In this document: positions 1-39,627 of the stretch, in pieces
Numbering within the stretch: position 1 is the stretch's first letter
How the letters are laid out: every line of letters begins with the position of its first letter
Source: Branchiostoma floridae
Lineage: Eukaryota > Chordata > Leptocardii > Amphioxiformes > Branchiostomatidae
Direction of reading: 5' to 3'
Length of the DNA stretch: 64,000 bases
Assembly: GCF_000003815.2 (NCBI RefSeq)
Contig: NC_049982.1
Coordinates: 23,394,169 to 23,458,168, forward strand
Translations under genes and position numbers: made by a program
Notes under the pieces: generated by a model
What the model saw: only the letters and a program-made list of their open reading frames with translations
What the model was told of the DNA's origin: nothing
Database searches by the model: none

Positions 1-3000
1 AAGAGAAAGGGATTAACATTTAAAAAACCGACTGGAAGAAGCATGTAAGATAGGCGTGCGTAATTCCAGAAATTGGTAAAATGTTGCGGAAAGTGTTTAC
101 CCCGGTTTTAAAGATCTGTACCACCCCGTTCCTAAATGTCTGTAACACCCCCCCCCCTCCACACACACACACATGCACAGACGGTTTCTAAAAGTCTACA
201 TCAGTATTCCTAGATGTCTGTACCGCCCAGTTTCTAAGGGTCTGCAAAGCCTCCCCTGTCTAAATGTTTGTACCCCCCCCCCATTTCTATTAGTCGATAC
301 CGTTCCCGTCCTGAATTATATGTCGAAAGCAGAGGGCATAAAAAATGGCACAACTTCAATTGAATAATAAAGTATACCATTGCTCGCTGTGTAAGAACTT
401 CTTTGAGATAAGGCAGCATTTTCTCCGGAACAATTGTCACACACAGCAGAGGTTCGTGTTTGTTGACGACATCTCTGTACACAAGGTCGGGATCCATGGC
501 CAGTTCATCTGCAAGATCTTGATGCTTGCTCTTCCTCAGCCCCTCCAGGAACTGTGTGTACCAGTCAGGTCCGCATCGCGTCACGCGGTCTATGAGAGTG
601 ATCAGGGCTCGTATGTTTCCATAGCTACGGTTTTCTGCCTCGATTTTCTCCTGTAAAACACATTGTTAGGGGTCAGACAATGCAGATCATTTCGTCCGTA
701 ATCATCTGCATGCAGACACATGCAGGTACATTGTACAAATCTTAGAATAAATTCGTTGTCGTTACTAGCAACAGTTGTGCCAAATATAAGTATGTCGAAA
801 AATAAATTCAATACTGTGTAAACGCTAGTACCTTGTCCTGCTCTGACAGACAGGGAAGGTGTGGCAGCATCTCCATGGCGACGACCACCTGCAGTTGCGG
901 CGCCAACAGCTGTAGGAGGCGATTCAAACCAGTCATATCCTGGATTGTCTCTCGGTCCTCCATGATAGTCTTGATATGACTATACCCTGTTGGATACACA
1001 ACCTTCAAGGTAATTTTTCGGGCATAAGAATCACTTGAAATATGACGAATAAACATCCGCAATTGGCTTTTGCTTCGAATTCCATTTACTATTAGAAACC
1101 ACACTGCTCACCTGACTTGTCCAGAGAATCTAGAAATGCCTGAAACCATCCCGGCTGTTCACATGTCTGTAGTTTCACCAGCAGTGTCTGCATTGCCTCA
1201 GCTGGTCCCTTGTTTCTCTCGTCAGCAATGACGGCTTTGACAAACGCTAAACCTACAGAACAGCAAAATAGAATTGTTTACAGTTTACACCTTTCACCGT
1301 AGAGGCCAGTGTCCGAATAGAATATCCTCCTCAGTTTTCTATGTCTTTGTCTTCCGGCTATTGAGTGAAAAGCATTTTCAACTTGAGAACTAGTATTAGT
1401 ACATTAGTTTCTGAATGCAGTGCTTGGCATAATTTTTTGTTCATATTTTCAACAAAATGGATTGTATTTGCTTGTATCAATATAGTTCATGCCAGTGTTT
1501 TTTTTTCAAATTGAACTGATAAAGCAATGTTACATAAAGGATCTAGTGAAAAGCTACGCCCTTTATAAGACATGAAGTCACGTTTGATATCGCTCTCCGA
1601 TCATGATTTTTAATTATGCAGATATAAGTATCTCAATGCGTGCATAAATATCCTTATGGAGACTTTATTGTGTTTGAAACTTGATTCTTATTGATAACGC
1701 TTATATTAGCTTCGAAGTTTTGATCGTATGTACTAGATCCCAGCAAAAAATATTTTTTAGTAATAATATATTGTTCATATATAATCCATACAAATAACGT
1801 ACGTATGGGTAACACTTGATGATGTTGTCAGACCCATACAGGTAAAAACACAACTTACTACCGTCAAAGTAAGCCATCAAGTGGATGATGATGTTGCCGG
1901 GGATGACCGTCTCCTTCAGAAGCGGTCCGAACGCCTCCAGGAGGGCCATTCCCAGCTCGTCCCCGGTCGGAATGGGCTCTGACGTGATGTCTGTGTCGAC
2001 TGCTCCTGGCAATACGTCAGCAGTATGTGTTTGAGAGTAAAATTGTCAGTCAAAAGCATGTCAAATCTTTCCTATAAAACAAATAGAACCTTAACCCTAT
2101 CCAGACTGGGCCTTTTGGGCATTCCCTGGCCTGGCCTCTCCCCTTCCTAATTTCAAAACGGCTTACTGTACGATCACCAAATTTGCAGGGGGTGATATGC
2201 TTGTCAAGTTTTATAATTATTAAAATCTTTGTATCATTATGACGTAATATGACGTACTTATGACGTCATTAATTGATTTTTACCTGACGTAATTATGACG
2301 TCATCTGTAGTTTAGCTATCCACCATCTTGGATTGTTAACCTTAAATGTCTTAAGATACATCTTTTTCAACATATAACGCTAAAACCCCATGAAAACGGA
2401 TTGAAGACGTTCACAGTAATGTTTTCAATAAAAAAAATACCAAGTAGTGATGAAATCTGAGTGAAAATAAGCTGGTTATACTTTTCATCATGATATTGTC
2501 GGCCATCTTGAATTTTGACCGATTACGTCATAACATTAGCATATTTATGAATATCTACTTGTAAATGTCACACTAAGATGTGTTAAATATTAACGATATA
2601 TGACAAGAAGTACCCTTTCAGAACCCCCCCTCCCCCAGTCTGAATAGGGTTAAACGAATTCGTGTTTGACATAAGCTGTTTCGAGGTCTACGTGAAGTCG
2701 CTTTTTACCTCGCAATGGTCTGAAGCATTACATGTTTCTAATTGCATAAAATGCAAATGTATTTATTTCTATGCGTGCATAACCTTATAGAACAGGTACT
2801 ATAAACTTAGAATTACCTGTTGGTTCCCTCGTGTCCTCCAGAAGGGCCAGCTTGTTCTCAAGCTTCAGGATTTGTGATTGAAGTGTTTCAGTCCTTTCCT
2901 GCATTGACTTTTTGTCCTTCTCAAGGCTCTCTATGTATTCCTGATTTTCTTTCAGTTTAATTGTCAATTGTTCTTTGGTTTTCAGAAGTTCATCTTTCAT

Positions 3001-6000
3001 CGAGTCTTTCTTTTCTGACATGTCTAACAGGCGCCTGACTTCCACTTTCAGACCGAGGCATTCGTCGGCTTTTTCACTTTCTTGGTTCTTAGCTATTTCC
3101 AGTTTGGCCATCAGTTGACGCTTTTTCTGGGCACTTTGTTGCAGCAGTTTTGCCATGTCGGATTCCCATCCGTTGAACATCTTACCACGAGGAGAAGAAG
3201 CCAAGTTCAGTGCGTCAATGCACTTACTGAGACATGTGCGTGACGTTTTCTTTGGTTTAATGCTGTACTGCAAGCTTTCCAGGGATGTTGATCGAACAAG
3301 ACCTGAATTGACAAAAATACATTTTTCAGCCATGGTGTATTGTGAAGTTCACAGAGAACACAAGAGAAAATTATAGGCTCCTCTTTACAATTTATAATTG
3401 GCAATCCCTCTTACTTTAAAGGCAAGTTTTCTGATTATGTTCAATCAGACTGCGTAATCAAGATCTAGTTGTGCTTAACTTCAAATCTACAAAACAAATG
3501 TCGGTTTAAGCTGTTTAAGCTTTCAGAGAGAATTAAAATCAACCAGTTTGGCACTCAATATCTCCCGTGTTATAATCACATGAAAACTGTAACAGTTGGA
3601 TAAAAATGATTTTTAGATATCCATCATGTACCTTTCCTGAGTCTCTTCCTAATAGCCTGGTAGTCTTCGTGATCCACATGAATTCGCACTGACAGTCGTT
3701 CAACATTTCGTTCGCCAATGACGGAGGCAAACTGTTTTGATACCAGTACTTTCGACAGTTCTACCGACAAACTCCCAGGTTCAGTCCTGGAGTATGTGTG
3801 ATAGAATCTTTCAACATCGCTGATGCGGAAAAACGACAGCAGCAGAGAGCCCACACCGGTCTTCAGTATCACTGCAGAATGCCCGAGAAATGTTTTGAAG
3901 ATTTGACGATATATCTGTGGATCACTTAGGACCAGTTTCCTTTCTACTTCCGCAATCCTTTCTGCTGCCTCGGATCTCACGTCGTGTGAGTTGATGATCA
4001 GCTGTAGTCTTGCTTTCAGCTCTAAAATCAACACAACATCAATCGTTCTAAGTCTGAAATGTTAATCCAAGCCATCGTTAGTGTGTGATAAGGCGTCTTA
4101 TTGTTCATGAAACATAATTCCCTGGTCCTGTGTTAAAACTAGATACCTAAGGAACCTGCCAGACATTTTACGTCATAGTAGTACTATACAAGGTACTCAT
4201 GATATACAAACAACTGCATGAAACATGTTTGGTAACGAATACATTTAAAAAATCAGAGAGAAACCATTAATGATACTAGAAATGCTACAAAACATAGCTC
4301 CGTAGTGAAATGTGCCCCAGATGTACGGATGACAGTTAAGCATCGTTGGAAATATACTCTGTTCAATCTAGTCACTAAATGCATTCAAAAATATTCAATG
4401 GTCTCACCTGGCAATACCCAAGGAATATCTGTGTCAGTTCCTTGACCTGCCATATCCTCTTTCACATTGTCTGAAATGGAAACATGTATATTTTGCCATT
4501 AAGTGAGTAATGATAAACAACTTGGTCATCTAGTGCGTGTGGAATTGTATTTAGAAGTGTATTTAAAGATATCTATATTTAGTTACATGTAGAAGTAGGT
4601 CTTACGCGGCTTTATGCACAGTCTTCGTGGAGGTGAACGTTACTTGATTTAAGTTCACTTACAACCCGCTTATATCTTACTTACCATATTATATTATATC
4701 GAAATGCAACTGTCAAAAAAGCACCTGTTTTCTGGAAATATCTTTTCCACTGCCGGTACTGCTCTTCCAGTATGATGACTCGCACCATTAAGTCTTTGCC
4801 GACAACTGTTCGCATCTCATCCGTGAGTAGATAGTCAGAGAAGTTAATACTGAGCTGCCCAGACTTATAGTCTCTCCAAAACATGTCTAAAGCTGCTACG
4901 CTGTCTGGGACTAGGTGAACGATGGCACAGCCCATCTTAACCTTAAGGATGCGCAGACTGTACTGAGAAAGGTTGTCTAACATGTCCTCTGTCTTTCTTA
5001 CAATCATTTCTCTTGGCAGAAGGCTTTCCGCATCCTTTAACCACTGTATCTGCATCCCTCCGACTTTTCCAAGCAGTTCTATGTGCTTTTCCTTTTCATC
5101 CTTGAGTTTGTCCTCGATCTGCTGCTCGTCGGTAACCCCTGCCGAACACGTGTCTTGGTCTTTGATGCTATCGTCTTCATCTGAGGATCCGGAATCGGTT
5201 GGGAACGGGGAAGGTGCCAGGCAAAGTAGTGTTTGTATTGCTGCAAGAAAGGTAGACACGGTCGATGAATATAACCAATGCCGCTTTCATGAAGACATCA
5301 ACATGTTTCTTAGTGATAAATACAGGACAAAAATCATGTTTGTAAGCAAACATATAAGCATATGTTTGCAATTGATAATCATTTACGCCGCCCCGTATAT
5401 CACAGATAAACAAATTACATATTCAATCAACTATTTACACACGAAAGTTATTCATTTCATCAGTTTTTGTTAATCAAATAGTTGCGTTATGAAAATGATT
5501 CAATTTTAAAAAATAATCGTGTTTGCAACCTGTGGGCTTCGGAATGCCTCTTTCCAATGTAGACAGCCGCTGTAGGACCTCTGTAGCGATGTTTGGCAGT
5601 TCCTCGGTAACGTTGTCTCTCTTCACACGTCGGGCACTCAGCTGTTTCAACGTGGGTGAGTACTTTCCGACTAGTTCACTGAATGCCTTAAAGTTGTCAT
5701 TGTTGGCATCAACCCAAATGGGGAATATTCGTTTGTTGTTTTTCAGACATGTTTCATACTCCAGTTTAGGCCAGTAGGGTTTGTTAAGAAATGATGTACT
5801 AACAACAATGACAGCAAGTTCTAAAGTTTGACTTGATAGCGTTGAAAGTATTCTTTCCCTTATGACGTCACCAGGTTTGATGGACACGTCATCGAAGAAA
5901 ATGTCTTTCTCGGCCAAACCCTTTTGCTGAAGTTTGGTGACAAGTGGACGGACAAATGGTTCTTTGTCTTCTCCTGCATGGATGATGAACACACGTGGTT

Positions 6001-7737
6001 CTAGAAAAGCACAAAGATAAAGATGATCACTTGGCGCTAAACACATAATCAGACTTTCATGTAACGTTACATCGAGAACATTAATACCGGTCAGTGAAAT
6101 GTATTATATGAGGGTTATGAGAATACCTGTTATCATGTAAGCAAGATTCTCTAGTTAAGGTTACTTATTGTTAAACCAAGACCTTAATATACCACGAAGC
6201 AATGGCTCAATTGAGGATTAGTAATCACCCCCTTCAAATTGAAGTAGGAAGATACTCCTCCAAGCAAGGACGTTACATCAAGCAAGGGCGTTATATCTCG
6301 TTGAAGAGATTCATTAGGCACATATTAATACAGTTGATAGAATATTTCTCAATCAGTGACTCTTTGAAAGGCGTATACTAGACACGTACCTCCGTACATC
6401 TTGTTCATGGAGTGACCTAGTCTCGCGAGAGTACTAGACTAGGTCCGAGACTTTGCCAGAGACTTGGTCACTCTGTGAACAACATGTACTGACCAGACAT
6501 TGAAACGTTTTTACGCCTTTGAAAGATTCACTGGTTGGGGGATATTCTAATAACCGAAGTCCATTTTGTATTAGAATGTACACTGTACAGTGACTTAATT
6601 CTACATACACGATTTAAACAGACGAACCATTTGTACATATACCATCCTCTGACAACATTGTACTACAACAACTCATATACACCTGTATAATGAAATGGAA
6701 GAGACATATGCATGGTTTGTTTTAAACTATTTGTTTTGTCCCACTGAGACTGTTCAGGACTGCTACGTTACTTAATGATTTGCTTTACCGTTGCTACATT
6801 TAGCCCATGGGAAAGAACGTGCATGTGCAAATAAAGATGATAAAGTGGGGTTATCCGCATTTGTGCTGAAGCAAAGGTTCACAAGAGCACCTATACGAAA
6901 AAGTACTATATGAGGGATATAAGAATACAAAATAGATTTACATGTACTCCGTGAAAAGTACAAAATAGTGGTTATGATAATATTCGTTTGAAACAAGCAC
7001 TACATGGGGGTCATAGAAATACCTAAAAGTGAAAACTACAATAAAGGTTTATGAGAACACCTGTCACTGAAACTGACTATATGCCGGTTATCAGAATACA
7101 TGTGAAAAGTACTATATGAGGATTGTAAATCTAGATGTATTCAAGAGCAATCCATTTTTCCATCCCTCTTGATTACCACCGTTGACAATATGTCTAAGGC
7201 CTACGTCACATTTCCACACCGGGGCCTGGCCGGGCAGCTTTTGGGAGCGAAAATAATGATATAAAAGACATCAAAATACGCAAAATGTCAAGAAAAGATT
7301 CATGGGCATAATTTGTGTATATTTTTAGATATACAATCTAATTTTTGCTTCTTTAAACATCCCGACCGGGCCCCGGTTTGGAAATGTGACCTAAGCCTAA
7401 CGGGTAACTTTAATCTAATTTGATCAATGATTTCTAAAGATGTACATATGTACTGCATACCTGTGGGCGGCTCATCCTGTAAGACCCGTGCCAGATGCGG
7501 GTAGCTGTTCTTCAAGGCATCCCGAAACACCGAGAATGCATTCGGTCCTCTGGTCGGGAGAACGTCCAGCAAAGCTTTGACTTCATCTTCACGTGATTCA
7601 TGATTTTCTATCTCGTCAAGATCAGCACCGTTCAGGATCCCATGGTCTATAAGATGTCGTCGAATGTTCCTAAACCGTAGATCGCTTGTTATCTCCAGTC
7701 GTTTGGCGAGAAGGAGGGCCTTGTGTCTCTGTTCCAT
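1..7737 (-). CDS. Chimeric CARD-TIR-TRADD-N-coiled coil-CARD-CARD-(MAVS CARD) protein, 3' end outside window
   Basis: Ten coding exons on the minus strand: 7737-7461, 6000-5530, 5240-4725, 4470-4408, 4021-3632, 3302-2817, 2005-1859, 1252-1112, 986-832 and 650-378. All have GT..AG borders, and the phases (1 for the first eight junctions, then 0) agree, giving 2919 nt or 973 codons with no stop. The ATG at 7737 has A at -3 and G at +4. Residues 1-92 form a CARD like that of RAIDD/CRADD (LLDVLPTRGPNAF). Residues 93-249 carry a TIR. About 345-415 and 490-560 are two related TRADD-N-like domains. About 625-730 is a coiled coil. Residues 735-933 are two CARDs close to those of the neighbouring RIG-I-like receptor. 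Residues 934-973 are the first half of a MAVS CARD. The last intron runs off the left edge, so the C-terminus is unseen. The protein is presumably a cytosolic signalling adaptor. Alternatively it is two genes, splitting after 2785. Confidence 0.75.
378..497 (-). other. MAVS-CARD first-exon copy fused to receptor CARD2
   Basis: Forty codons that start at the position of a MAVS methionine and end at the same phase-0 donor as MAVS exon 1 (28144-28254). Thirty-three of the 37 aligned residues are identical, with a three-residue insertion after MDP. It is fused without an intron to receptor CARD2 sequence (QDLADELA|MDPD). The second half of the CARD would need an exon to the left of position 1. 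Confidence 0.85.
498..2005 (-). other. Copied RIG-I-like-receptor tandem CARD module in the chimeric gene
   Basis: Exons 2005-1859, 1252-1112 and 986-832 and the first 153 nt of 650-378 are counterparts of exons 1-4 of the receptor gene at 10180-24617, with the same lengths and phases apart from one extra codon in the third. The second exon matches at 39 of 47 residues and the fourth part at 43 of 51. The receptor's start ATG is TTG here (2010-2012), so the module cannot begin translation at the ancestral site. The following CCAG (2009-2006) is a phase-correct acceptor. Confidence 0.85.
2091..2653. mobile_element. TTAA-flanked inverted-repeat element in the chimera's junction intron
   Basis: The ends are TTAACCCTATCCAGACTGG and the inverse of CAGTCTGAATAGGGTTAA, so a TTAA lies at both edges (2091-2094 and 2650-2653), as for TTAA-inserting transposons. 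No transposase frame is present, so it is non-autonomous. It carries two perfect TGACGTCA sites (2261-2268, 2296-2303). It sits between the coiled-coil exon and the first receptor-derived CARD exon. Confidence 0.7.
2817..3302 (-). other. Coiled-coil exon of the chimeric gene, with possible alternative 3' end
   Basis: The exon encodes 162 residues. The C-terminal two thirds is a Lys/Glu/Leu-rich heptad-like helix (KLEIAKNQESEKADEC, LKTKEQLTIKLKENQEY, QILKLENKLALLEDT), expected to oligomerise. The exon ends ACAG|GTAATT, in phase with the CARD exon at 2005. If the donor is not used, the frame continues ten codons to a stop at about 2785, and an AATAAA lies on this strand at 2767-2762. A short CARD-TIR-TRADD-N isoform by intronic polyadenylation is therefore possible. 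Confidence 0.7.
3632..5240 (-). other. Two TRADD-N-like domains of the chimeric gene (three exons)
   Basis: Exons 5240-4725 and 4021-3632 each end in the same kind of segment: a hydrophobic strand (CAIVHLVPDSVAALDMFW; VGSLLLSFFRISDVERFY), a helix, LSINFSDYLL or LSVELSKVLV, then a final strand with VRVIILEEQYRQW or VRIHVDHEDYQAI. This matches my recollection of TRADD N-terminal-like domains found in invertebrate signalling proteins. The first exon also holds an acidic, Ser-rich linker. A 63-nt exon (4470-4408) between them encodes a linker. The family assignment is from pattern memory and is moderate. Confidence 0.55.
5530..6000 (-). other. TIR domain exon of the chimeric gene
   Basis: A single exon encodes the whole TIR domain, entered and left in phase 1. 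It opens with RVFIIHAGEDKEPFVRPL (strand A and helix A), then has FFDDVSIKPGD, typical of the box-2/BB-loop region in TIR_2-type domains, and VSTSFLNKPYWPKLEYE. The Glu four residues after Trp (about residue 173) sits where NAD-cleaving TIRs have their catalytic glutamate (W-x3-E, as in plant TIRs). Whether it is enzymatic or only a scaffold cannot be decided from sequence alone. Confidence 0.85.
6338..6549. mobile_element. Imperfect inverted-repeat (hairpin) element
   Basis: The left arm from 6338 (TAGAATATTTCTCAATCAGT, CTTTGAAAGGCGTA) is matched in reverse complement by the right arm ending at 6549. The centre includes a second inverted segment around TCTCGCGAGA (6421-6430). No coding capacity. 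It lies in the first coding intron of the chimeric gene. Confidence 0.6.
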
Positions 7738-16100: not shown

Positions 16101-19100
16101 GTACTTTTTAGACCATTGACAAAGTCTCGAAAGAGCAAAATCCAGGAAAAGTGTAATGATATGACAAGGTTCTGTGTAGGTAATGGTGACATTACAATCA
16201 TTAATACTGTAATTACTGATTTTGACAATTAATCATAAGTTATATTTTCATCCATAACAGGAAAAGGAAAATGAGTTTACAAAAGAAAGTGGTATCTGTT
16301 GACTTAATACTTTGTGTATTAGTTCACCTTCATCCTCCTGTTTCTCAGCAACATCGTCAGTGCAGAGGTTTTGTAGGGCCACTGCTAACGGTTGTTCCCC
16401 GTTAGATGCGTCCAGTCCATTAGTGGTCGGTGCTTCCACAGAGATGACACATGTATGGTCTTCTGAATCTGAGTCTGCTGCTGTAATACGATTAATATAC
16501 AACTGTCATCTTCATATGAATGTACCGACGAGGATCAACAAAATTGTCGGTAAAAGTGCTTAAGCTTGCGAAAGACATTCAGAAGGTTAAAGAGATAAAG
16601 CCCATGCTATCTGAATACAATGACTGAACAACAGATTTTGGTGCTAAGCGTGCATTGTTTTTGATTATGTATTTCGTGTAATCTCTATTGTTTGAACTAA
16701 ATTTCATAGTCTTCATCTCAAAAGCATGTGCCTGTTTACAGTGTTTGTGAACGCGACGACAATATAATAGCAGCACTACCTATTACGTTCCTATTATCCT
16801 AGTTTGACTCTTGTCGTCTAAGCAGGATTTTAGTTTGGCCTTTGAATAGAGCTAAAAGAATCTCCACCCTTAGTAGCTTAATGACAAATAAAGGAATGTT
16901 TTTTTTTAAATTTTCATACAGCCTGTTGAATCTGATCCGGCGCCCTTCTTATGCTCGTCGTCCTTCTCTCTGCCATCCTTGTCGCCAGGATGGATGTCCA
17001 GATCCGGGACAACGTCCTCTTCTATTCATGTAACATTGGGAATAAATTCTATCTGAGATGTTGACGGTGCAATCATAATTGAATCCAACACCATTGGTAT
17101 AAAGTCACTAAAATCTGACGAAGTTGTTTTTTTTTTCTTTAATTGTAGTATCGTCACCTAGTATAGTGCTGATTGCTAAACTATTAACAGTTTAAACCGT
17201 GCATAATTCATTCACCTTACGAATACATATAAGACCCTGGAAAGTCTGATGCAGTATTTGTTCTGTTTAATACATTTTGTGATCAGGCAGTATGTGCGAC
17301 AACGTTACAGGCTCATAGGACTGACAACGTTGCAAAACTCTCGGTGCCATTCGGTAAAAAGAGGAGTTCAATGCATCTGAGCAGGTACAGGTGTTTTCCT
17401 CATACTCAACTCTTCTAGATCCCTTACCTCTCTTTATGTCTCCCAGCTCAGTTGCAAGATCTTGATGCTTGCTCCTCCTCAGCCCCTCCAGGAACTGTGT
17501 GTACCAGCCGGGTCCGCATCGCGTCACACGGTCTATGAGGGTGATCAGGGCTCGTGTGTTTCCATGGCTACGGTTGTCGGCTTCAATTTGTTCCTACAAG
17601 AAGAAAAAACGTGAAAATTGTGATAACATATATTTTCTCGGCTCGTTAAAAAAAAGAGATTGAGCCGGATTCATACATCTGCCAAAATCAAATGGGGTAG
17701 ATAGACAAATTTTGTTCGGTAATTCCGTTTAAGAACTGATGATTGCTGATTTAACAATTGCTAAATCAATGACGCTATGCCTTTCCCTGAATTGAATGGA
17801 GAAATGGGTTGTCTGAGGGTTCCAAGATGGCCAAAACCTGACGTCACAACTTAAAAGGGCGGTGCCCATTGACCCAATGGTAAACAGAAGAAGTTTTCGC
17901 CATATAAAACCTGTAAAAAGTACATATAATGCAACAAGGACAAATGCCCGTACCTTGTCCTGATCCGACAGACAGGGAAGGTGAGGCAGCATCTCCATGG
18001 CGACGACCACCTGCAGTTGCGGCGCCCACAGCTGTAGGAGGCGCTTGAAACCAGTCATGTCCTGGATCTCTCGACCCTCAATGATGTTCTTAATGTAACC
18101 GTACCCTGAATAGTAAACATTCCTGAATTTCAGAAGGAGCAAGATGGGCACCAAACAAAGCATGCGGTGTGAGAGGGACGCTTCAAAGAGTACTTTAACC
18201 GGTTATCTTCACCAATGTGTTTTGATCAAGCTAGACACATGTACATACCAAATAAATATCACTAGGTTCCATCCACAACTTGTCGATTTATGCTGACCTC
18301 AAACAAGCAAGCAAACCAGTACCGGTGGGCTAAACTTGGTATCGTTAGAAAAGTCCCTTGGTAGGTAATTGTAATCTGCAAACCGCTTTGAAAGATTGTG
18401 CTCTGTTGCCGAGATATTCTCGGTCATAGGTTCCCCCTTAACTAACCGCTAACAAACCCTATGGCTAGAAAAAGCGCAATCTCAAAGCATCTTCCGGTGA
18501 GTTAAACTTTGTATCCTTTGAAAGGTCCCTTGGAAGGTAGTTTTAATCCGCGCACAAACCGCTTTCATAGGTTCCCCCCTTAACCACTAAATAACCCTAT
18601 GGCTAGCTAAGAGAGTCTGACTTCAATTTGATATGTAACCCAGATACCGGACACTACAGCCATGTATACCCAAGTGTTGGTTCATTGGGATTTAAAGACA
18701 TATGGAAAGAACAGAAAAATTCCAAAGTTGACAAGAAATATAGCAATAAGTAGGGAAAAGTACAATCTTGAAGAGAAACAGGCAGATTGCCATGTGAATT
18801 GAGAGGGGAAAGGGTAGAGACCACTTGAAAATGAGGAAAATCAGAAGTCAGCATGAAGACAGGTCATATCATGCACCGAAAATGCGCAATCATGCACCGA
18901 AAATGCGCAATCCTATCTTCTGGTGAATTAGACTGTGTATCCTTGGAAAGGTCCCTTGGTAGGTAATTATAATCCGCAAACCGCTTTTATAGGTTCCCCT
19001 CTTAACTAACCGCTAATCATATATAAATAACCCTATGGCTAGCTAACAGATTCTGACTGCAATTTGATGTGTATTCCAGATACCGGACACCACAATCATG

Positions 19101-22100
19101 TATACCCACGTGTTGGGTCATAGGGATTCAAAAACATATGGAAAGAACAGAAAAATTCCAAAGTTGACAAGAAATACAGCAATAAGTAGGGAAAAGTACA
19201 ATCTTGAAGAGGAACAGAAAGATTACCATGTGAATTGAGAGGGAAAAGTGTAGAGAGCACTTGAAAATGAGGAAAATCAGAAGTCAGCATGAAGACAGGT
19301 CATGCACTGAAAATGCGCAATCCTAAAGCATCATCTGGTAGAGTAAACTTTGTATCCTTGGAAAGGTCCCTTGGTAGGTAATTATAATCCGCGCACAAAC
19401 CGCTTTCATAGGTTCCCCTCTTAACTAACCGCTAAATAACCCAATGGCTAGCTAAGATATTCTGACTGCAATTTGATGTGTAACCCAGCTACCGGACACT
19501 ACAGTCATGTATACCCAAGTGTTGGTTCATTGGGATTCAAAGACATATGGAAAGAACAGAAAAATTCCAAAGTTGACAAGAAATATAGCAATAAGTAGGG
19601 AAAAGTACAATATTAAAGAGGAACAGAAAGGTTACCCTGTGAATTGAGAGGGAAAAGTGTAGAGAGCACTTGAAAATGAGGAAAATCAGAAGTCAGCATG
19701 AAGACAGGTCATGCACCGAAAATGCGCAATCCTATCTTCTGGTGGATTAAACTTTGCATCCTTGGAAAAGGTCCCTTAGTAAGTAATTGTAATCCGCAAA
19801 CCCCTTTCATAGGTTCCCCTCTTAACTAACCGCTAAATAACCCAATGGCTAGCTAAGAGTTTCTGACTGAAATTTGATTCAATTTGATGTGAAACCCAGC
19901 TACCGGACACTACAGTCATGTATACCCAAGTGTTGGTTCATTGGGATTCAAAGACATATGGAAAGAGCAGAAAAATTCCAAAGTTGACAAGAAATAAAGC
20001 AATAGTACAATCTTGAAGAGAAACAAAAAGATTACCATGTGAATTGAGAGGGAAAAGTGTAGAGAGCACTTAAAGATGAGAAAAATCAGAAGTCAGCATG
20101 AAGACAGGTCATGCACCGAAAATGCGCAATCATGCACCGAAAATGCGCAATCATGCACTGAAAATGCGCAATCCTAAAGCATCATCTGGTAGAGTAAACT
20201 TTGTATCCTTTGAAAGGTCCCTTGGTAGGTAATTATAATCCACAAATCGCTTTCATAGGTTCCCCTCTTAACTAACCGCTAAATAACCCAATGGCTAGCT
20301 AACAGATTCTGACTTCAATTTGATGTGCAACCCAGATACCGGACACTACAGCCATGTATACCCACGTGTTGGGTCATTGGGATTCAAAGACATATGGAAA
20401 GAATAGAAAAATTCCAAAGTTGACAAGAAATATAGCAATAAGTAGGGAAACGTACAAGCTTCAAGAGAAACAGACAGATTACCATGTGAATTGAGAGGGA
20501 AAAGTGTAGAGAGCACTTGAAAATGAGGAAAATCAGAAGTCAGCATGAAGACAGGTCATGCACTGAAAATGCGCAATCCTAAAGCATCATCTGGTAGAGT
20601 AAACTTTGTATCCTTGGAAAGGTCCCTTGGTAGCTTATATACCTGTATAGGTAATTATAATCCGCAAACCGCTTTCATAGGTTCCCCTCTTAACTAACCG
20701 CTAAATAACCCAATGGCTAGCTAACAGATTCTGACTTCAATTTGATGTGCAACCCAGATACCGGACACTACAGCCATGTATACCCACGTGTTGGTAGGGA
20801 TTCAAAGACATATGGAAAGAACAGAAAAATTCCAAAGTTGACAAGAAATATAGCAATAAGTAGGGAAAAGTACAATCTTGAAGAGGAACAGAAAGATTAC
20901 CATGTGAATTGAGAGCGAAAAGTGTAGAGACCACTTGAAAATGAGGAAAATCAGACGTCAACATGAAGACAGGTGCCTGGCTGGAAAACTAATCAGCTGG
21001 AAGTTACTCATGAGGCCGCTCTCATGTCAGAGGGAAGGGCTTAAAGTCTTGGAAAGACAGCTGTTTAGGAGTGATTAATGATCCTAGGCTCCACAAACAC
21101 CCTAGTTACAAGGCTAAACAACTGGTTGCTGTGGTATTGTAAGAGGATCTCGCGCTGTCATGCTGGGGCTTCTCTCGCGAGAGTATGATAATGAGGCTAT
21201 ATACAGGAAGCCCATGCATAAAATTCTGATTGACCAGGGATGCTATTGGGTCACATGTGACCAGTGTGATTTGTACTTACAAACGAAAATCAATGCAATG
21301 CGCACAGATGTCAGTGTAGCCTTAGTCGTGCAAATGGAGTCATAGTTTATACTCAGCATGTTCACAGGGGCCCTCCCTACACGAGCAACCCAATCCGCCC
21401 CATCATCCATCACAAATTAAAGCCATCATAAATTGATAAAACTTTTGAATCATCCTGTAAACTTTGAAACCATACATTAAATTCATCAGGGGCAATAATC
21501 CTTTTGATGTAGATAACAATTATGCGTTCACGACCATAAAAACTATACGTTCACTAACAACTGTATCTCTGTTATATATATATACGTTGTCTGACCCTTG
21601 CCTCTTCCCTCAATGAAAATCGGCATGAATAAACAAAGTTCAAACTAGAGTTCCACGAACACATACCTTTGCCAAATAAACTAGGTTTGTTATGTAGAAA
21701 GATGTCTGTAGACATAAAAATTTTATTTTATATGCTATGTTAAGTCACACGAACTCTTATCAACTAGAGTTTGGTGACCTTATACCTCCATGAAATAGTA
21801 AGAACTTGTGTAAATTTAATGCCAATGACTTACAAGGGGCCCAAAATCTAATCATTAGTCTTTGTAGGGAGGGCGGAGAGGTACATGTGCACAGGTTTTT
21901 ATTGTTGTAATATTTTAACGAAAGAAAGTTTGCAAGTTCTTGCCCGAGGACTAATTACAACATGGAACATACAGAATACTAAACACACAGAAAATAAAAG
22001 ACTTTGGTATAGATAACAATGGTGACAAGTAGAGACAAGTGGCTATTCTAGTAATGATATGTACTACTGAGAGCTACAATCTAAGCATATTGGGTTTGAC

Positions 22101-24617
22101 TTCTTTCTGGAAGCAGTGGAAGGTGACCCACTTTTTCTGTAATGAGTGGGTTATGTGATGTTAACAGGTTATAGTTTTGTTTCCGTCAGTAAAAGTTTGG
22201 AACTTTTGCAGGCCTCTTCGAATAGCTCTTTACTTTCCTGGTCATTAGGGAGGCAGTTTGAAATAAAACGTAGTTTGTCTTCCTCTGGTTTTGAAATACA
22301 ACAGGTACAGATTCTTTCACATACAAGTACCTTTTTGTACCACCCTTTCTCAATTGCAAGGGGGTGGGTGCTAATTCTAAGTTTATGCACAAAGCCCACC
22401 ATACCTCATATTTATCTAGAAAATTTTAAATAATTTTCCATGGAATATCCCTTCTTTAGTTTTTTGTAGACAGTCTATGAAAAAATGTACCTCTACCTAA
22501 AATGTACCTAAAATGGCCTTTACAAGATTTTTGCGAGGAAAGCTCAATTTCAGACCATGTAGTGAAAGGGGAAGGGGAGATGACAGTGTACCTACCTTTC
22601 AGGAGTAGAATTCAGACTAAGATTGTTGTTATGTACATATGCCCTTACTTTTAGCATGACAAACTGATCATATGGCCTAAGGCTCAACTGACAGATGCAA
22701 TGTCTGACCTTTACTCCTCTAGAGTATCAGATTTCTCACAGCACTGCCACTGGTGGAATCAACCAAACCAGGCTGGGGGGTTGTAATGCTTCAGAAGTTT
22801 TTGACAAGAATGCCCCGGCTATCCCTAACTAGCTGCTAGGGGGCCCAAACTTATGTCCCTAACTCCTGAGCTCAAGAGCTATCTAACACCCAAAATTCGT
22901 GACCATAACATGTTTAGAAGATGAGAAAACACACCCGGAAGTTGCGCTGCAGTACCAAGGGAAGCCGCTAGGGGGCCCATCATCGTACTCCCCCTCCGTT
23001 TTCCAGACCCCTACCCACCCACCAAATATCATCAGCGTCCGTCGAACTCTTCTCGAGTTATACTGTCCACGGACAAAAGTTTGCAAGTAAACCGGCGCCT
23101 GCACTTCCAACAAAGCCGCTAGGGGGCCCAAACTCGCAGCAATCACTCTCTGCTTTAAGGGCTCCCTACCGCTCAAAAATCACGACCGCAGCATGTCCAG
23201 AACGCGAGATATCAAGCATGGAAGTTCCGCTGCAGTACCTTAGCAAGCCGCTAGGGGGCCCATTATCGAACTCCCCCTTCGTTCTCCAAACCCCTACCCA
23301 CCCACCAAATATCAGCTGCATTCGTCGCAGTCTTCTCGAGTTATGCTGTTCACAAACGGGGAAAACATACAACCGGACCGAAAGTATAACCTTATGCCAT
23401 TCTGGCAAAGGTAACAAACAAACCATCGCGACCTCATCTGTCCCCTATCGAGATGCAGATCAACTGCAACTTGCAGTAAATGTCAAGCAAGGGAGATTCC
23501 CCGTAACGTTAAGTGGGAATCATGGAAGTCCCCAGGTAGACTATGCATGATACTGTCGGGGGTTCCCCGTATTCAAACCACCTAAATTCTGCCTAGAGAT
23601 AACATAACTAGAAACCATAAGGCTATATGTAAACGTACACATTGTGATGCAAGAAAAGAACACTGTTGTTAACCATTCTATCTACATTGGATGACTGAAA
23701 CTAAGATACATCTCCATTACTTATATCTGAACAATACGTTGAAGGAAACTGTATCGTGTACCTGAGTTGGCTAGTGCATTCAGGAAAGCTTGAAACCATC
23801 CCGGCTGTTCACACGTCTGTAGTTTCACCAGCAGTGTCTGCATTGCCTCAGCTGATCCCTTGTTTTGCTCGTCAGCAATGACGGTTCTGACAAACGCTAA
23901 ACCTAAACACAGAACAGGGCAATCATAGATTACCCACACTGTTTTTCGACCCTCCATTGACAAATATAACAGTGCTGAGGATATATGGCAATGCTGTGTA
24001 TATTGAGAATAGAAAGTAACACACACTCGGGGGGGGGGGGGAGAGTAATAAAATCATAGCCTGGTATCCAGCCGTAATATAGCTCCCGAGACTCGGGAGC
24101 TATAATACGGCTGGATACCAGGCTAACAAAATCAGAGCATTAACTTTCCTTGTTTCGCTGGGGACATCGACGGTACCATGCGTACATGTGTATAATCAAC
24201 ATTCTCAAACGCTAACGTTAACGTTGCATGGAAATGGCAGGAATGGTTGTTGGACGAAGGCAAAGGGCTCAGGTAGATTCAGGCAATATGTTGTGGTCTA
24301 TAATGGTGTAATATTACATCTAAATGTACCGATGCTATAACCTAGCATGTAATGTAAACACAACGCCGCATTCATGTAACGTTTTAACCCGGAAGAGGAG
24401 CTTCAGGAAAGGTAAAACATTAACTACTTGTCCACACAGGAAAAACACAAAACTTACCGTTGTCAAAGTAACCCATAAGGTGGACGATGATGTTGCCAGG
24501 GATGACGGTCTCTTTCAGCAGCGGGGCGAACGCCTCCAGAAGGGCCTTTCCCAGTTCGTCCCCGGTCGGTACGGCCTCCGGTTGGACGTCCGTCCCGGCT
24601 GCACCTGCACCTGGCAT
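10180..24617 (-). CDS. RIG-I-like receptor (CARD-CARD-DECH helicase-zinc RD), complete
   Basis: Eighteen exons: 24617-24458, 23902-23762, 18105-17954, 17593-17428, 16480-16328, 16032-15823, 15556-15460, 15153-14895, 14487-14325, 14184-14092, 13849-13695, 13384-13249, 12961-12722, 12473-12306, 12094-12021, 11716-11550, 11256-11062 and 10387-10180. All phases agree; 2937 nt encode 978 aa. CARD1 is residues 12-100 and CARD2 101-205. Walker A APTGSGKT is about 303-310, DECH 413-416, LTAS 450-453, [11 protein letters not shown] about 732-742, and QTRGRGRA is motif VI. The C-terminal domain has the zinc cysteines C856, C859, C909 and C912 and ends KIESFV..KW. The family senses viral double-stranded or 5'-triphosphate RNA in the cytosol, hydrolyses ATP, and signals through CARDs to MAVS. 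Helicase blocks look closest to MDA5/LGP2 ([25 protein letters not shown]), with some RIG-I-like features, so one vertebrate name is not justified. Confidence 0.95.
18300..20975. repeat. Tandem array of about 400-440-base units in receptor intron 2
   Basis: The phrase AGTCAGCATGAAGACAGGTC recurs near 18849, 19285, 19699, 20099, 20543 and 20961 (the last slightly changed), giving six units plus a partial one at the left. Within units a short repeat CATGCACCGAAAATGCGCAAT occurs twice (from 18869) or three times (from about 20109). A frame of about 65 codons on the minus strand is kept in four units but broken in others, so it is not taken as coding. Confidence 0.9.
21890..22440 (-). mobile_element. 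5'-truncated LINE 3' end
   Basis: The minus-strand frame at 22402-22169 has [17 protein letters not shown], then ERICTCC, then FISNC, the residue pattern of the C-terminal region of non-LTR retrotransposon polymerases. The same sequence family appears at 32030-32410. Only the 3' end is present. It lies in receptor intron 2. Confidence 0.65.
22960..23370. repeat. Two copies of a GCCGCTAGGGGGCCCA-containing repeat
   Basis: The segments 22960-23075 and 23240-23350 align closely: GCCGCTAGGGGGCCCAT, then a C-rich stretch with CCTACCCACCCACCAAATAT, then TTCTCGAGTTAT. A third GCCGCTAGGGGGCCCA lies at about 23114-23129. No domain is recognised. Confidence 0.75.
24029..24043. repeat. G homopolymer in receptor intron 1
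   Basis: A run of G next to the hairpin. Similar G or C runs occur at 279-290, 9547-9558 and 58675-58687. Confidence 0.8.
24058..24124. repeat. Near-perfect hairpin in receptor intron 1
   Basis: Two 33-base arms (AGCCTGGTATCCAGCCGTA...) are reverse complements with one mismatch and a single-base loop. A transcript would form a long stem. Probably a tiny MITE. Confidence 0.85.
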
Positions 24618-28131: not shown

Positions 28132-31122
28132 ATGGTTGGCTTCATGGATCCGTACAAAGATGTTGTCAACAAACACGAGCCTCTGCTGTGTGAGACGATC
28201 GTGCCCGAGGAAATGCTACCTTACCTCAAAGAAGTTCTTACACAACGAGCTGTGGTATGTCTTATTATTCAATGAATGTTGTGCCATTTTATGCCATCTA
28301 CTTCTGACATGTGCTTCAGAACGGGGACAATATCGACTTTCAGACACGGGGGGGCGGTACAAACATTTGGAAAGGGGAGGAGCTTTACAGACCTGTGGAA
28401 TCGGGGGTAGAAAAATACTTTTAGAAACGGGAGCGATACAGACTTTCAGTAAAAGGCTATGGTACAATCTGTGTGGAACTCTGGGGGTGGAGGGTAGGTG
28501 AGTACTATAAGGAACATGCCCCTAACTTACATGATACTTCCAGGTGGTATCTAAGGTTAAAGCTTTTCTCTTTCTTGTTGTTTTTCCAACAATAGGAAAC
28601 GATCACATGCGAGCAGAGGAACTACGGCGCCAGCACAGCGGTAAGTAAGCTGTTGTGGGAGCTGAAGAGGAAGAAAGACTGGTTTCCTGCCCTCATCCGG
28701 GCACTTCTAGCTCTCGGACACGACGATGTAGCCGATAAACTGGACCCCTATCACAAAGGTATAGTCTTAAAAATTCGAATGAAAGTTCTCCTGTGACGAT
28801 GATTAAGATTTTACACGGTATATTTCCCGTATACAATATAAAGTGCTTTACCAACAAGCTTTCAACCTGTCCTTTGATCCTTTTGTCAAGTTGAAATGAC
28901 CAGAAGCCTATGTCTCGTGAACTGAACGGAATTGTGACGTCAGTAACGGGCCAACGCAGTTGGTATCGACTCCCGTCTTGGTTGATTGATAACCTCTGAT
29001 GTATGGCTTCTTTCACTCCTTTCAAAATATGATACTGTTTAGTGCCCACTATGATAACGTTATCCATGTCCTGGAGATTTATCATGAATACATTGGGAAA
29101 CCCCAGAGTTCGCTGACTTCATGTTCTAAGAAGGTGGTCTAAGAAACCTGTTAGAGTCATACATACAAAGTCTTTGATTGACAGATAGATTGATCTGTCA
29201 TAACATGTCTTTCCCGCCACAGTTCCCAGGCCGACGTCTGGAGCAGCTGCAGGGCCGACCGGACAGAACTCACCGTCTGGGACGGCGGCAGGACAACAAG
29301 TCCCGCAGGTAACATCGTGGTCTCAGGGTCTGAACATGGTAGTGGGATTACACTTCAGCAGATTATGTATGTAGCCATAGCATCCGTGATCTAGCTTTGG
29401 GACTGACTGAAAGGGATTCAGTGAGTAAGTGTTAGGAAGAAGGTTTACAAATACGCCATTTTGTTCTTGCGCCATAGTAAAATGTTGACTGCTATTCTTG
29501 TGGTCGAGCACTGCTGTTCGTTGTTAATGAGATCATGAGATGATAAGCAATAAACATGTCAACCACTTTCTTTCTATCGGTTCCCTCATGTGGAGACTTT
29601 GTACTATGTACAATGTGTAGCGTGATCTTTATTGTTGCTTAACCGTATAGGTTTCCTTTAAAACAATGCCCTCTCCTATTCTAAAAGGTGTTGTTTCCTC
29701 CTTAAGGGCCCCGGTCCATCACGACAGGGACGCACGGCTGGTCAACCCCCAGCAGACCCCCAGGTCGAACCCTTCTCTGTGGTGGCCCAGGACACCCAGC
29801 CCCACCAGCGGCCTGACCACGGACAGGTAGCCGTGGTGTTGGAGGAAGAGGGCGGAGAAAAGAAAGATGGCGGTGACGATAGACATGATAAGGATGAAGA
29901 AATGCCTTCAATGGAAGGTTGCAGCATCAATAGTACGGAGTTCGTCAGAAGAAGGATGGAGGACGACCACAGGGCGCCAGGACGCACGTATGCAGATGGA
30001 GATGTGGAGGAAAACCCGACGGAGGGTGCCGAACACGGCGCGATAGAAGAGCAGCCGACTGCCTTCTTCGAGGAAGCGGAGGATGATCACCTGGACGGGT
30101 CGCCTCAACATGTACAGCCGGGAGCGCTGATAAGGGAACTCGAGGAAGAAAACATGCAGAAGATCAGGATAAAGGATGCGCTCCTCGAGGAGGTGAAGTC
30201 TGAGGCTCAGGATGAAGCTGACAGGGGGCGCTCAGGCACACCCATCCCATACCTAATGCAGAAAGAGCACGATGCCAGAGGAGCAGAGGGCAATCGCTCA
30301 GACGGGGAGAAAGATGAAGGAGGAAGTTCCGGCTCGAGTTTCGAACTCCCACCTGGCTTTGAAGACTCCATGGAAGAGCATTGGAACCTCGGCGGAGATG
30401 AATTAGCACCTCCGAACAACGAGCTAACCTCCCCTCCCCACAGAGCCGAATCCGAATCACTCCAAAAGATCGACAACATCACAAGAGCGGAGAAGCAAGG
30501 GAAATCTGAGAAAGAACCTCCAGGCCTAGGACCGACAAATGTGGCCTTCATATCAGGAGCTGGAAAGCGTACGTCTGCGGTGACCGTTTGTGACGGAAGG
30601 GAAAACGAGCTAGCCACGGAGCCCAAAGACGTGGTGCAGCCGACTGACAACGGCGACGGCGTCCACGACGACGGTATGAACGACTACGTCTCGAAAGCAC
30701 CTCTCGCGACTATAAGCGGTACTATAACATCAACTGCTCCGAAAGATACCAAAGATGCCGCCAGCCCCACAGATCCAAAATCCACAGATTTCCCAACGCA
30801 TTCCAAAGCGCCTACTCCAAACAAACCAAAAGCGCGGGAACCTGCTTCAAAACCCAGCCAGGACAACAAAACCCGACCAACAGACACCTGTCCGCGCAAA
30901 CCACCTGTTACGAAGCGCCCCCATACCGTTCCCGAGCGTACTGCAGACGAAAACAACGGCCAGAACGCCAACAGAGATACCGAGCAAAAACCCTCAATGC
31001 AGAAGGACGCAGACGGTGGAGGAGTGGGCAGTTGGTCTGGGTGGCGCGTGGCTGGAGGTGTAGCGGTAGCTGCTGCTGGAGGTCTAGCGGTAGCCGGCAT
31101 AATCAGGATGCGATTCATGTAG
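28132..31122 (+). CDS. MAVS: MAVS (IPS-1/VISA/Cardif) homologue, complete
   Basis: Four exons: 28132-28254, 28596-28758, 29223-29308 and 29707-31122, phases 0, 1, 0; 595 aa, close to the 540 aa of human MAVS. Residues 1-95 form a single CARD (ETIVPEEMLPYLKEVL, then KDWFPALIRALLALG, DDVADKL). Residues 96-560 are low-complexity and acidic, then Pro/Thr/Lys-rich, as in MAVS. A C-terminal membrane segment (about 572-590, VAGGVAVAAAGGLAVAGI) is followed by IRMRFM, a short basic tail typical of outer mitochondrial membrane tail anchors. The ATG has A at -3 and G at +4. MAVS receives CARD signals from RIG-I-like receptors and nucleates filaments that activate IRF and NF-kB pathways. I see a TRAF6-like P-T-E-G-A-E but no pLxIS motif. 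A CARD-plus-tail-anchor protein of another lineage is the alternative. Confidence 0.88.
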
Positions 31123-37900: not shown

Positions 37901-39627
37901 TAACGGACCTCAACTTTATGTAGAATTCTGGGAATGTAACATACTAGCGCTACCTGCCCCTCGTGAATCAACATGACTTTGGCTCGACAGTTCAGCTATA
38001 TGAGACTTGTACATATCATGGAACGATCTCTGGCTGTCTGGCGTTGATGTACGTGACAGTAACAAGTTTCCAAAAATAAGGCTTACAAGATTATTTTTCT
38101 TCGCATGCAGGACGGGGAGAAGCAGAGGTCCGAGGATGGAAGGGTCCCGGTCCATGTGCCCCCACGACTGACCACCTCTACCACCCACAAGCCATGTCAG
38201 CAAAAGATCTGAGCACAGACACCGAAGAAGACGATTTACCAGGCTGCCTGCCGCCCTTCAGTCCGCCAAAGAAACCAACTGGCCCGCTCTCTGAGGAAGA
38301 AGAATTCGAACTGATCGCGAAATGGCAGGCGGGCGGGCTAACACTGGGCCAGCCCAAATCATCAGCCATCACCGATGTCACGGTCAAGTACAAGTCTCGG
38401 GAAGACCTGGACAACCTCGGCTTCGACACGCACGACGAAGTAACCGGAGAGGAATACGATGTGCTGTACGACCTCTACGCCACGATGGATGACGTAGACC
38501 AGACATGCGACCGTCTTGAAGACGACTTCACGGCCTTGGCTCCGGCGATGGAAGGAGACCATTTCTTCTTCTACGACGAGGAGAATGAGTGTGGCCCGAA
38601 CTTCCACGACGACGAGATGGCTGAAGAGGAGAGCTGGAACCAATACGAGTACCAAACAACCCTGTACCCGTATACGAAAGAAAACGGAGGGGTGTGGTAC
38701 ACCACAGAAGAAGACGGCCACGGGTTAACTTTCGAAGAAGACGACTCCGACAATTCTGGCTCCTTGGAGCGGCAGCAGCGAGTCAGCTCCGGGTATCTCA
38801 GCGCCGACCTGTCCTTCGAGCAGTCCTCTCGGGACGACAGCACTCAGTACTCCGACAGTGTCTACATCCCGAAGGGCTGGGAGAAATTCCCGAGAGAAAT
38901 CGCCAAGCAAAAGTTTGACCTGAAGAAGGACCCGGCCCTGCCGAGTCTGAAAGTGCCGCCCGTGGAGGAGGAACCACCGAGACAGTACCGGAGAGCTCGG
39001 TCGGAGAGAGGAGAGGAAGAGCAGTGGGAGGTGTCCCTGGCAGATGAAATTCTGCAGGCTGAAGGCTTTAGGTCCGGTTCTCACCGTCACTCGCGGAGGT
39101 CGTCAAGGGACCACCATCGTCCGCGCATCCTGGACCTCCGCCGGCGCAGCCGCCACGACAGCGGGCCCATTCCCGGGTCCGTCCGCATGCCGTCCCTGAG
39201 GGACAAGCTGGAGGAGTACCAACGGGAGCTGGAAGTGCACGGCCCTCGTCGGTCGGAGCCGCAGTCTCGTCGGTCAAGCCTGGCCACCACGATGACGGGC
39301 TGGGACCTGACGTCGATGAGCTACTCGCAATCACAAGCTGACATGTCCTGCACGGAGGATGCCTGGGCGGGCGGCAGGCGCAGGAGATCCGCGCACCATC
39401 ACCACCGTTCCCGGCGGGAGAGTCGCGTTGTCTCCGCCGCCACGACACCCAGACCGTCCCGCCCGTCCAGCGGGCGTTCCCACAAACATCGACACGGAAA
39501 GAACAAGGACAGTGATCGCGAGTGGAAGATCGTGACTGTTGTGGGTTGCGTGATCGCAATAGGCGTCCTCATATGGGGCCTGTACGGACATGGTAGCACC
39601 AAGACCACCGCTATAAGAATGGAATAA
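34942..39627 (+). CDS. Acidic, Arg/Ser/His-rich tail-anchored protein, unrecognised
   Basis: The main exon (38111-39627) encodes 477 aa from the ATG at 38194 (G at -3). The frame stays open upstream to the acceptor GCATGCAG at 38110. A possible first exon, 34942-34969 (ATG, then ATG|GTGAGT donor), joins in phase and would add 37 residues to give 514 aa. The first 200 residues are strongly acidic. Residues about 280-440 are basic and rich in Arg, Ser and His (RRSSRDHHRPR, HHHHRSRRE). A single membrane segment (VTVVGCVIAIGVLIWGLYG) lies near the C-terminus, leaving a short tail, so it should be tail-anchored with the bulk in the cytosol. I recognise no CARD, KASH, BH or other named domain. It is the next gene after MAVS on the same strand, but no functional link is shown. 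Confidence 0.7.
35448..35576. mobile_element. MITE with CTCCAAGCA ends (copy 1)
   Basis: Left end TACTCTCCAAGCAGAAATTA; right end TGCTTGGAGAATA is its inverse. No coding capacity. It lies in the intron before 38111. Confidence 0.6.
35695..35865. mobile_element. MITE with 15-base perfect ends TACAGTCAAACCTGT
   Basis: The terminal 15 bases are exact inverted repeats. The interior repeats GGCCACC and TAGTGGCCA. The element at 47920-48091 belongs to the same family. Confidence 0.8.
36213..36353. mobile_element. MITE with CTCCAAGCA-type ends (copy 2)
   Basis: Left end TACTCTCCGAGCAGATGTTA and right end the inverse (AAGCTTTGCTTGGAAAGTA). Confidence 0.55.
36560..36708. mobile_element. MITE with CTCCAAGCA-type ends (copy 3)
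   Basis: Left end ATTCTCCAAGTAGAGGTTTC and AGTCG; right end CGACTGAAACCTTTGCTTGG and AGAAT. Inverted repeats of about 25 bases. Confidence 0.65.

Follow-up and report, generated by a model that had tools for sequence, protein, structure and literature searches.

Do the immunity-type exons at one edge of a lancelet genome window form a single gene, and if so, what kind of protein does it encode? Vertebrate innate immunity keeps RIG-I-like receptors (RLRs) and TIR proteins in distinct branches. The window, which is the whole stretch of 64,000 nucleotides of Branchiostoma floridae analysed here (C4:23394169-23458168), carries on its minus strand exons of both sorts, and the sequence-only reading had joined ten of them in frame into one chimeric gene. 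The genome searched for related sequences comprises 513 Mb in 431 contigs. All coordinates are those of the window, and negative positions lie to the left of it (C4 = 23394168 + x). The features of this chain, the front half of a gene that we call RLR-B, are the following.

7461..7737, minus strand: exon 1, ATG start and CARD0 (PF00619, best stretch residues 8-88)
5530..6000, minus strand: exon 2, TIR domain of the TIR_2 type, phase 1-1 (PF13676, E 2.4e-10)
4725..5240, minus strand: exon 3, TRADD-N-like domain 1 (PF20694 matches among family members)
4408..4470, minus strand: exon 4, short linker exon (GT-AG, phase 1-1)
3632..4021, minus strand: exon 5, TRADD-N-like domain 2 (10-sequence family; hhalign to domain 1)
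2817..3302, minus strand: exon 6, coiled-coil exon, second part common to RLR-C ("coiled coil" by eye)
2762..2767, minus strand: AATAAA hexamer within the intron that follows exon 6; a short form may be polyadenylated here
1862..2005, minus strand: exon 7, receptor CARD1, first half (RIG-I CARD match; acceptor TTGCCAG followed by GAG, by eye)
1112..1252, minus strand: exon 8, receptor CARD1, second half (RIG-I CARD match)
832..986, minus strand: exon 9, receptor CARD2, first half (RIG-I CARD match)
378..650, minus strand: exon 10, receptor CARD2, second half, and first half of a MAVS-type CARD (phase 0 end)

The ten exons, separated by GT-AG introns, join into a stop-free chain of 2,916 nt. 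The proposed in-frame join was thus confirmed, with a count of 972 codons and not 973. Introns 1-8 are in phase 1 and intron 9 is in phase 0; phase 0 is also found at the end of the last exon, since this exon includes the initial half of a MAVS-type CARD. Pfam analysis of the chain detected CARD (PF00619, E 1.6e-19), TIR_2 (PF13676, E 2.4e-10) and three stretches of CARD_2 (PF16739, E 5.1e-32), and TRADD-like_N (PF20694) below its own cut-off (E 0.009). Among PDB sequences, the top match of exons 2005-378 is to the CARDs of RIG-I (DDX58; 4nqk, E 1.7e-12, query residues 22-175), and the second CARD of these exons also matches MAVS (best E 8.3e-7). By these alignments, RLR-B carries tandem CARDs of the RIG-I type.

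An extension of the assembly past position 1 had been named as a check of the chimera. Directly left of this position, a run of 1,451 N lies between exon 650-378 and RIG-I-like helicase and RD exons, which continue on the same minus strand. Twelve of them, from -1728 to -7120, were chained into 655 codons with conflict-free phases from 1 to 0 and a single terminal stop. Their edges were chosen by homology and GT-AG, and the chain leaves out two blocks conserved between RLR-B and the neighbouring RLR-A (in RLR-B -5583 to -5630 and -6533 to -6628). Pfam matches to RIG-I_C (PF18119, E 5.2e-34), Helicase_C (PF00271, E 9.1e-16), DEAD (PF00270, E 3.1e-7) and, at the C-terminus, RIG-I_C-RD (PF11648, E 1.3e-30), the latter with the two CxxC pairs CVKC and CRNC, identify a RIG-I insertion domain, a helicase core and a C-terminal RD in RLR-B. 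Since the strand continues into helicase and RD exons, exons 2005-378 are the tandem CARDs of a receptor. For the same reason the suggested link between TIR and RNA-sensing pathways gains strength. A stand-alone CARD decoy, considered earlier as a function of the chain, is rejected, as a RIG-I-like helicase and RD lie downstream of the CARD exons.

RLR-B sits in a tandem cluster with the helicase sets of RLR-A, RLR-C/D and RLR-E, as listed here.

24617 to about 10180, minus strand: RLR-A, classical tandem-CARD RIG-I-like receptor with its own ATG at 24617 and without a TIR module upstream
about -8850 to -25560: RLR-C/D (L009 to L011), CARD-TIR-coiled coil-CARD-CARD, then a second CARD set and helicase
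about -28640 to -36000: RLR-E (L011 and L037), CARD-TIR-linker-helicase order

The exons of RLR-A were taken from conservation with RLR-B, and its chain is joined only in part. The helicase and RD exons of RLR-B match those of RLR-A block for block, and the N run takes, by position, the place of the linker and Walker-A exons of RLR-A. Walker A (motif I) is seen in RLR-A, RLR-D and RLR-E; the RLR-B counterpart would fall inside the N run, together with the linker exon and a phase 0-to-1 exon. Motif II reads DEYH in RLR-B versus DECH in RLR-A, RLR-D and RLR-E. An intron of RLR-A contains tandem repeats of roughly 410-430 bp (window 18468-20974), and the first intron a near-perfect 69-bp palindrome (window 24057-24125).

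The upstream exons of RLR-C encode a CARD (PF00619, E 9.6e-11), a TIR (TIR_2, E 5.3e-9) and a coiled coil. In RLR-E, the CARD and TIR exons are related to RLR-B by tblastn (E 3.5e-16 and 1.1e-46), and the receptor-CARD search of the genome gave no match at this locus. The assembly of RLR-C/D is doubtful and possibly wrong, because its helicase lacks the part matching RLR-A 14320-12116 and a 100-N gap lies inside a CARD exon. An RLR-E helicase exon shows a one-base deletion relative to RLR-A and RLR-B, so that the helicases of both neighbours look damaged. These lesions would suit a decayed or recently scrambled locus, that is, a genomic fusion from which a working receptor is no longer made, and so would the over-representation of TIR PF13676 among dispensable lancelet genes, as described in the text of a 2025 pangenome paper (PMC12373286). 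However, the exons of RLR-B are open on either side of the N run, its splice sites are in place and its dN/dS values are low, and we regard decay of RLR-B as highly improbable.

A genome search with the coiled-coil exon of RLR-C returned two matches, RLR-C itself and RLR-B, both located before receptor CARD1 exons, and the alignment of the two reached a score of 210 versus a maximum of 70 in 1,000 shuffles. Where RLR-A starts with ATGCCAG (the ATG at 24617, then CCAG), RLR-B and RLR-D read TTGCCAG by eye, with the exon directly after. The end of the RLR-B intron before CARD1 matches the sequence before CARD1 of RLR-D over 75 bp (83%), and RLR-C has a pyrimidine-rich AG acceptor at this place. 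Similarity between the introns before CARD1 of RLR-B and RLR-C is below detection, and the sequence before exon 7 of RLR-B is not shared with that before the start of RLR-A. In RLR-E, the TIR donor and the linker acceptor are both in phase 1 and lie about 0.5 kb apart. The linker exon is stop-free, has whole-codon indels and shows pN 0.36 < pS 0.55 versus RLR-A (significance not tested); from these features, it is probably spliced to an upstream exon.

Fusion is the best reading because of the junction sequences, the shared coiled coil, the arrangement in RLR-C and RLR-E and the RLR-E linker taken together. RLR-B is probably an N-terminally extended RIG-I-like receptor of shuffled phase-1 exons, expressed as a single transcript, and one chimeric gene with CARD, TIR, two TRADD-N domains, coiled coil and receptor CARDs, as originally suggested, accounts best for the window. 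Two neighbouring genes duplicated as a pair would be another way to obtain this order: one for a CARD-TIR-TRADD-N-coiled-coil adaptor whose end lies near 2785, the other for a receptor with its own promoter starting from the ATG of exon 7. Read-through of the exon 6 donor indeed leads to a stop at 2785, with AATAAA at 2767-2762, and RLR-C also has a stop soon after its coiled-coil donor and an AATAAA within 60 nt. The chance of this hexamer is about 0.02 per 60 nt (nine on the minus strand in window 1-25000), and the coincidence was noticed after the fact. As possible receptor starts, exon 7 of RLR-B holds an in-frame ATG (GGGAATGG) in good context by eye, which would allow a nearly complete CARD1, an in-frame ATG also precedes the CARD1 acceptor of RLR-C, and Met codons lie within the RLR-E helicase ahead of its Walker A. 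However, RLR-C reads AAG at the position of the CARD1 ATG of RLR-B, and its upstream ATG precedes the pyrimidine-rich AG acceptor. The difference between the sequences upstream of exon 7 and of the RLR-A start, the fitting junction phases and the RLR-E linker exon, which looks coding and contains no Met ahead of the helicase, likewise argue against separate genes. Co-duplicated neighbours would leave some identical traces, for example a coiled coil before both CARD sets; all in all, we consider two genes unlikely.

A form of the fusion reading, and one compatible with it, is a single gene with alternative ends. Here, intronic polyadenylation after exon 6 would yield a soluble CARD-TIR-TRADD-N-coiled-coil form and splicing to exon 7 the long receptor. 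The AATAAA found after the coiled-coil donor in both RLR-B and RLR-C, alongside the evidence for fusion, is in line with such a short form, whereas the two hexamers lie at non-homologous positions by eye and the pattern was noted after the fact. We therefore take alternative ends as a conceivable but rather doubtful addition to the fused gene.

A further element of the chain is the MAVS-type CARD. At the end of exon 650-378, 37 residues are 91% identical in protein to an exon on the plus strand at 28144, which belongs to the following gene.

28144..31122, plus strand: MAVS-like gene, CARD exons 28144-28254 and 28596-28758 (edges by eye), ORF 29662-31122

The two CARD exons of this gene, joined by hand, match CARD_2 with E 1.6e-14. 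By reading, its second CARD exon begins in phase 0 and ends in phase 1, as RLR-B requires next, and we predict such a phase 0-to-1 exon in the N run of RLR-B. Of the MAVS CARD that the sequence-only reading had placed in the chain, the first half is thus present at the end of exon 650-378; a complete CARD is not seen, with the rest behind the 1,451 N. Among MAVS features, the RLR-B chain shows this half CARD and ends after the RD, and neither a full MAVS-type CARD nor a C-terminal membrane anchor was found in it. The MAVS-like gene adjoins the receptor cluster, with its start about 20 kb away from exon 1 of RLR-B. Its ORF encodes 486 aa with a hydrophobic C-terminus by eye, and the Pfam search of this plus-strand frame (29665-31119) gave no match. 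A second open frame on the plus strand (38080-39627) encodes 515 aa with an acidic N-terminal region and, by eye, a hydrophobic C-terminal tail; here too, Pfam gave no match (38083-39624).

TIR domains in related proteins break down the cell fuel NAD. A profile of 13 TIRs (alignment A1), compared with PDB sequences, ranks bacterial TIRs first and matches AbTIR, named as NAD(+) hydrolase, with E 1.1e-14. E80 is invariant in all 13 TIRs and aligns with the E of WTNYE, a W-x-x-x-E stretch, in AbTIR, which we take to be the catalytic residue of that enzyme. The TIR of RLR-B is NADase-like, retains the key glutamate and may be active as an NADase. The structure model of this domain (pLDDT 81.8) gave 1,179 matches at E<=10 in a fold search, three of which reach E 0.001, namely the TIR proteins SpbK and SPARTA, and EF-Tu; RPS4, TLR15 and MAL follow lower, interspersed with non-TIR folds. 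The identity of the TIR is better supported by the sequence profile than by these fold matches.

The assignment of the TRADD-N-like domains depends on paralogues, because the chain in the window scores below the PF20694 cut-off. In the alignment of the first domain, nine of ten members reach E<=1 with PF20694 (7.9e-6 in the best case), and the window member, at E 0.0012, is below the cut-off. None of the ten members of the second alignment matches PF20694; domain 2 may be tied to domain 1 by profile comparison only (hhalign probability 90%, P 1.7e-6), and a PDB sequence search with it gave no match at E<=5. Domain 1 has a K-x-G-C/S turn by eye. With regard to the RRM-like fold of the TRADD-N superfamily, its structure model is poor (pLDDT 61.5), and the fold search with this model returned no matches at E<=0.001.

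Selection was analysed on eight of the 13 TIRs, all six CARD0 exons found and six of the ten TRADD-N1 sequences of alignment A2. For the TIR of RLR-B, dN/dS is 0.07, 0.07, 0.18, 0.14 and 0.13 versus five of the ten paralogues outside the cluster; comparisons with the TIRs of RLR-C and RLR-E are saturated, and these two differ from each other with dN/dS 0.16 at dS 0.29. The TIR exons are under strong constraint. Values for CARD0 range from 0.07 to 0.34 in the four unsaturated of five RLR-B pairs, for TRADD-N1 from 0.26 to 0.33 in five RLR-B pairs, and for the receptor CARD exons from 0.12 to 0.62 over the tested pairs. Chance ORFs as the source of the exons are ruled out by protein paralogues elsewhere with dN/dS well below 1.

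Where do these exons come from? Matches to either TRADD-N domain number 52 in the genome. The TRADD-N query delivered 12 loci, two in the window and ten elsewhere, and in all ten of the latter a TIR exon lies just upstream of TRADD-N. A CARD0 exon is present as well in three of the ten (L019, L021 and L024), within the 3.5 kb covered; paralogues of this exon, 37-73% identical, occur at five other loci. By reading of the inspected loci, TIR and TRADD-N1 exons have phase 1 on both sides. The downstream parts vary: chromosomes 12 and 14 have long exons there, for which Pfam gave no match (one was tested), and the C7 locus has, by eye, a P-loop exon. For L018, a paralogue on chromosome 12, a downstream exon had no Pfam match, and for L023 it had only matches below the cut-off. 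The TIR of RLR-B is not sister to those of RLR-C and RLR-E and groups among paralogues of chromosomes 12, 14, 4 and 7; for the C/E type, the nearest relative is a TIR on contig C223. We conclude from this that the front-end was swapped or gained on more than one occasion. The C223 locus (L047, C223:168001-176000) shows, by eye, a death-like exon, a TIR exon, a TRADD-N exon and a P-loop exon. At the DNA level, its TIR exon is 88.7-89.7% identical to the TIR exons of RLR-E and RLR-C and thus appears to have been exchanged between receptors of different kinds.

RLR-B shares tandem CARDs, a helicase with the RIG-I insertion domain and an RD with two CxxC pairs with RIG-I, MDA5 and LGP2. It differs from RIG-I-like receptors by CARD0, TIR, two TRADD-N domains and the coiled coil in front, by a third, half CARD and by DEYH. 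The text of an eLife paper of 2021 (PMC8195603) describes DEDD2-clade TRADD-N proteins of marine invertebrates, in which a constant part (death-fold and TRADD-N) is combined with variable partners; in cnidarians and brachiopods, these partners include RLR-like receptors. The TRADD-N turn given there, with a conserved tiny residue and Ser, sometimes Cys, is a further likeness to the lancelet domain. As far as that text goes, the lancelet TIR/TRADD-N loci follow the same constant-plus-variable pattern, whereas RLR-B differs by a TIR between CARD and TRADD-N, by the receptor CARDs kept and by its occurrence in a lancelet. A TIR-TRADD-N-RLR protein is not named there, source data aside. For amphioxus, the text of a study in Genome Biol. 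2008 (PMC2575513) lists 28 TIR combinations, 20 of them amphioxus-specific, with hybrids such as TIR-NACHT, TIR-NB-ARC-WD40, TIR-SAM and TIR-Laminin; "RIG-I" and "helicase" have no occurrence in its main text. RLR-B resembles these hybrids, as presented there, in having a TIR in a lancelet-specific combination, and differs in the partner domains. According to the text of Yao et al. 2022 (PMC8998645), seven RLRs are annotated in B. floridae, and lophotrochozoan RLRs show N-terminal domain grafting by exon changes, with death, DED, IG, CASc and SAM domains grafted. The grafting is alike in RLR-B, and TIR is absent among the grafts named in that text. A TIR-RLR in print was not recognised in the literature searched, the scope of which excludes supplementary tables and most subscription journals. 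The claim that the domain combination is unknown from any described protein holds for the exact combination within this literature; lancelet TIR hybrids (PMC2575513) and cnidarian and brachiopod TRADD-N/RLR fusions (PMC8195603) have been published, as the texts of these papers show.

RLR-B would be a cytosolic protein with the order CARD0, TIR, TRADD-N, TRADD-N, coiled coil, CARD1, CARD2, a MAVS-type CARD of which at least half is present, helicase with insertion domain and RD. Symmetric phase-1 exon cassettes were probably added to a receptor duplicated in tandem, in front of its CARD1 exon. By homology, helicase and RD would recognise viral RNA and form multimers along it, and the receptor CARDs would nucleate the CARD filament of MAVS. 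The clustered TIRs might then assemble and either hydrolyse NAD+ or recruit TIR/TRAF-type partners, with the coiled coil aiding oligomerisation. SPARTA, a bacterial TIR-APAZ with a short Argonaute, couples nucleic-acid sensing to TIR, and SPARTA TIRs appear among the fold matches of the TIR model. Its sensor is unrelated, its proteins are separate and it is bacterial, so the likeness to RLR-B would be a functional one only. It seems possible, though short of likely, that RNA-triggered clustering switches on the TIR NADase of RLR-B itself in addition to MAVS. This would make RLR-B a single-chain animal RNA sensor with a TIR effector, parallel in function to bacterial TIR defence, and the product of a lancelet phase-1 shuffling engine that plugs CARD/death, TIR and TRADD-N cassettes onto different sensors.

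RLR-B is surprising to a specialist, yet no new kind of system. With RLR-A beside the extended receptors, the cluster offers a natural control for the added front-end. If the proposal is true, RNA sensing would be wired to TIR chemistry inside one chordate chain.
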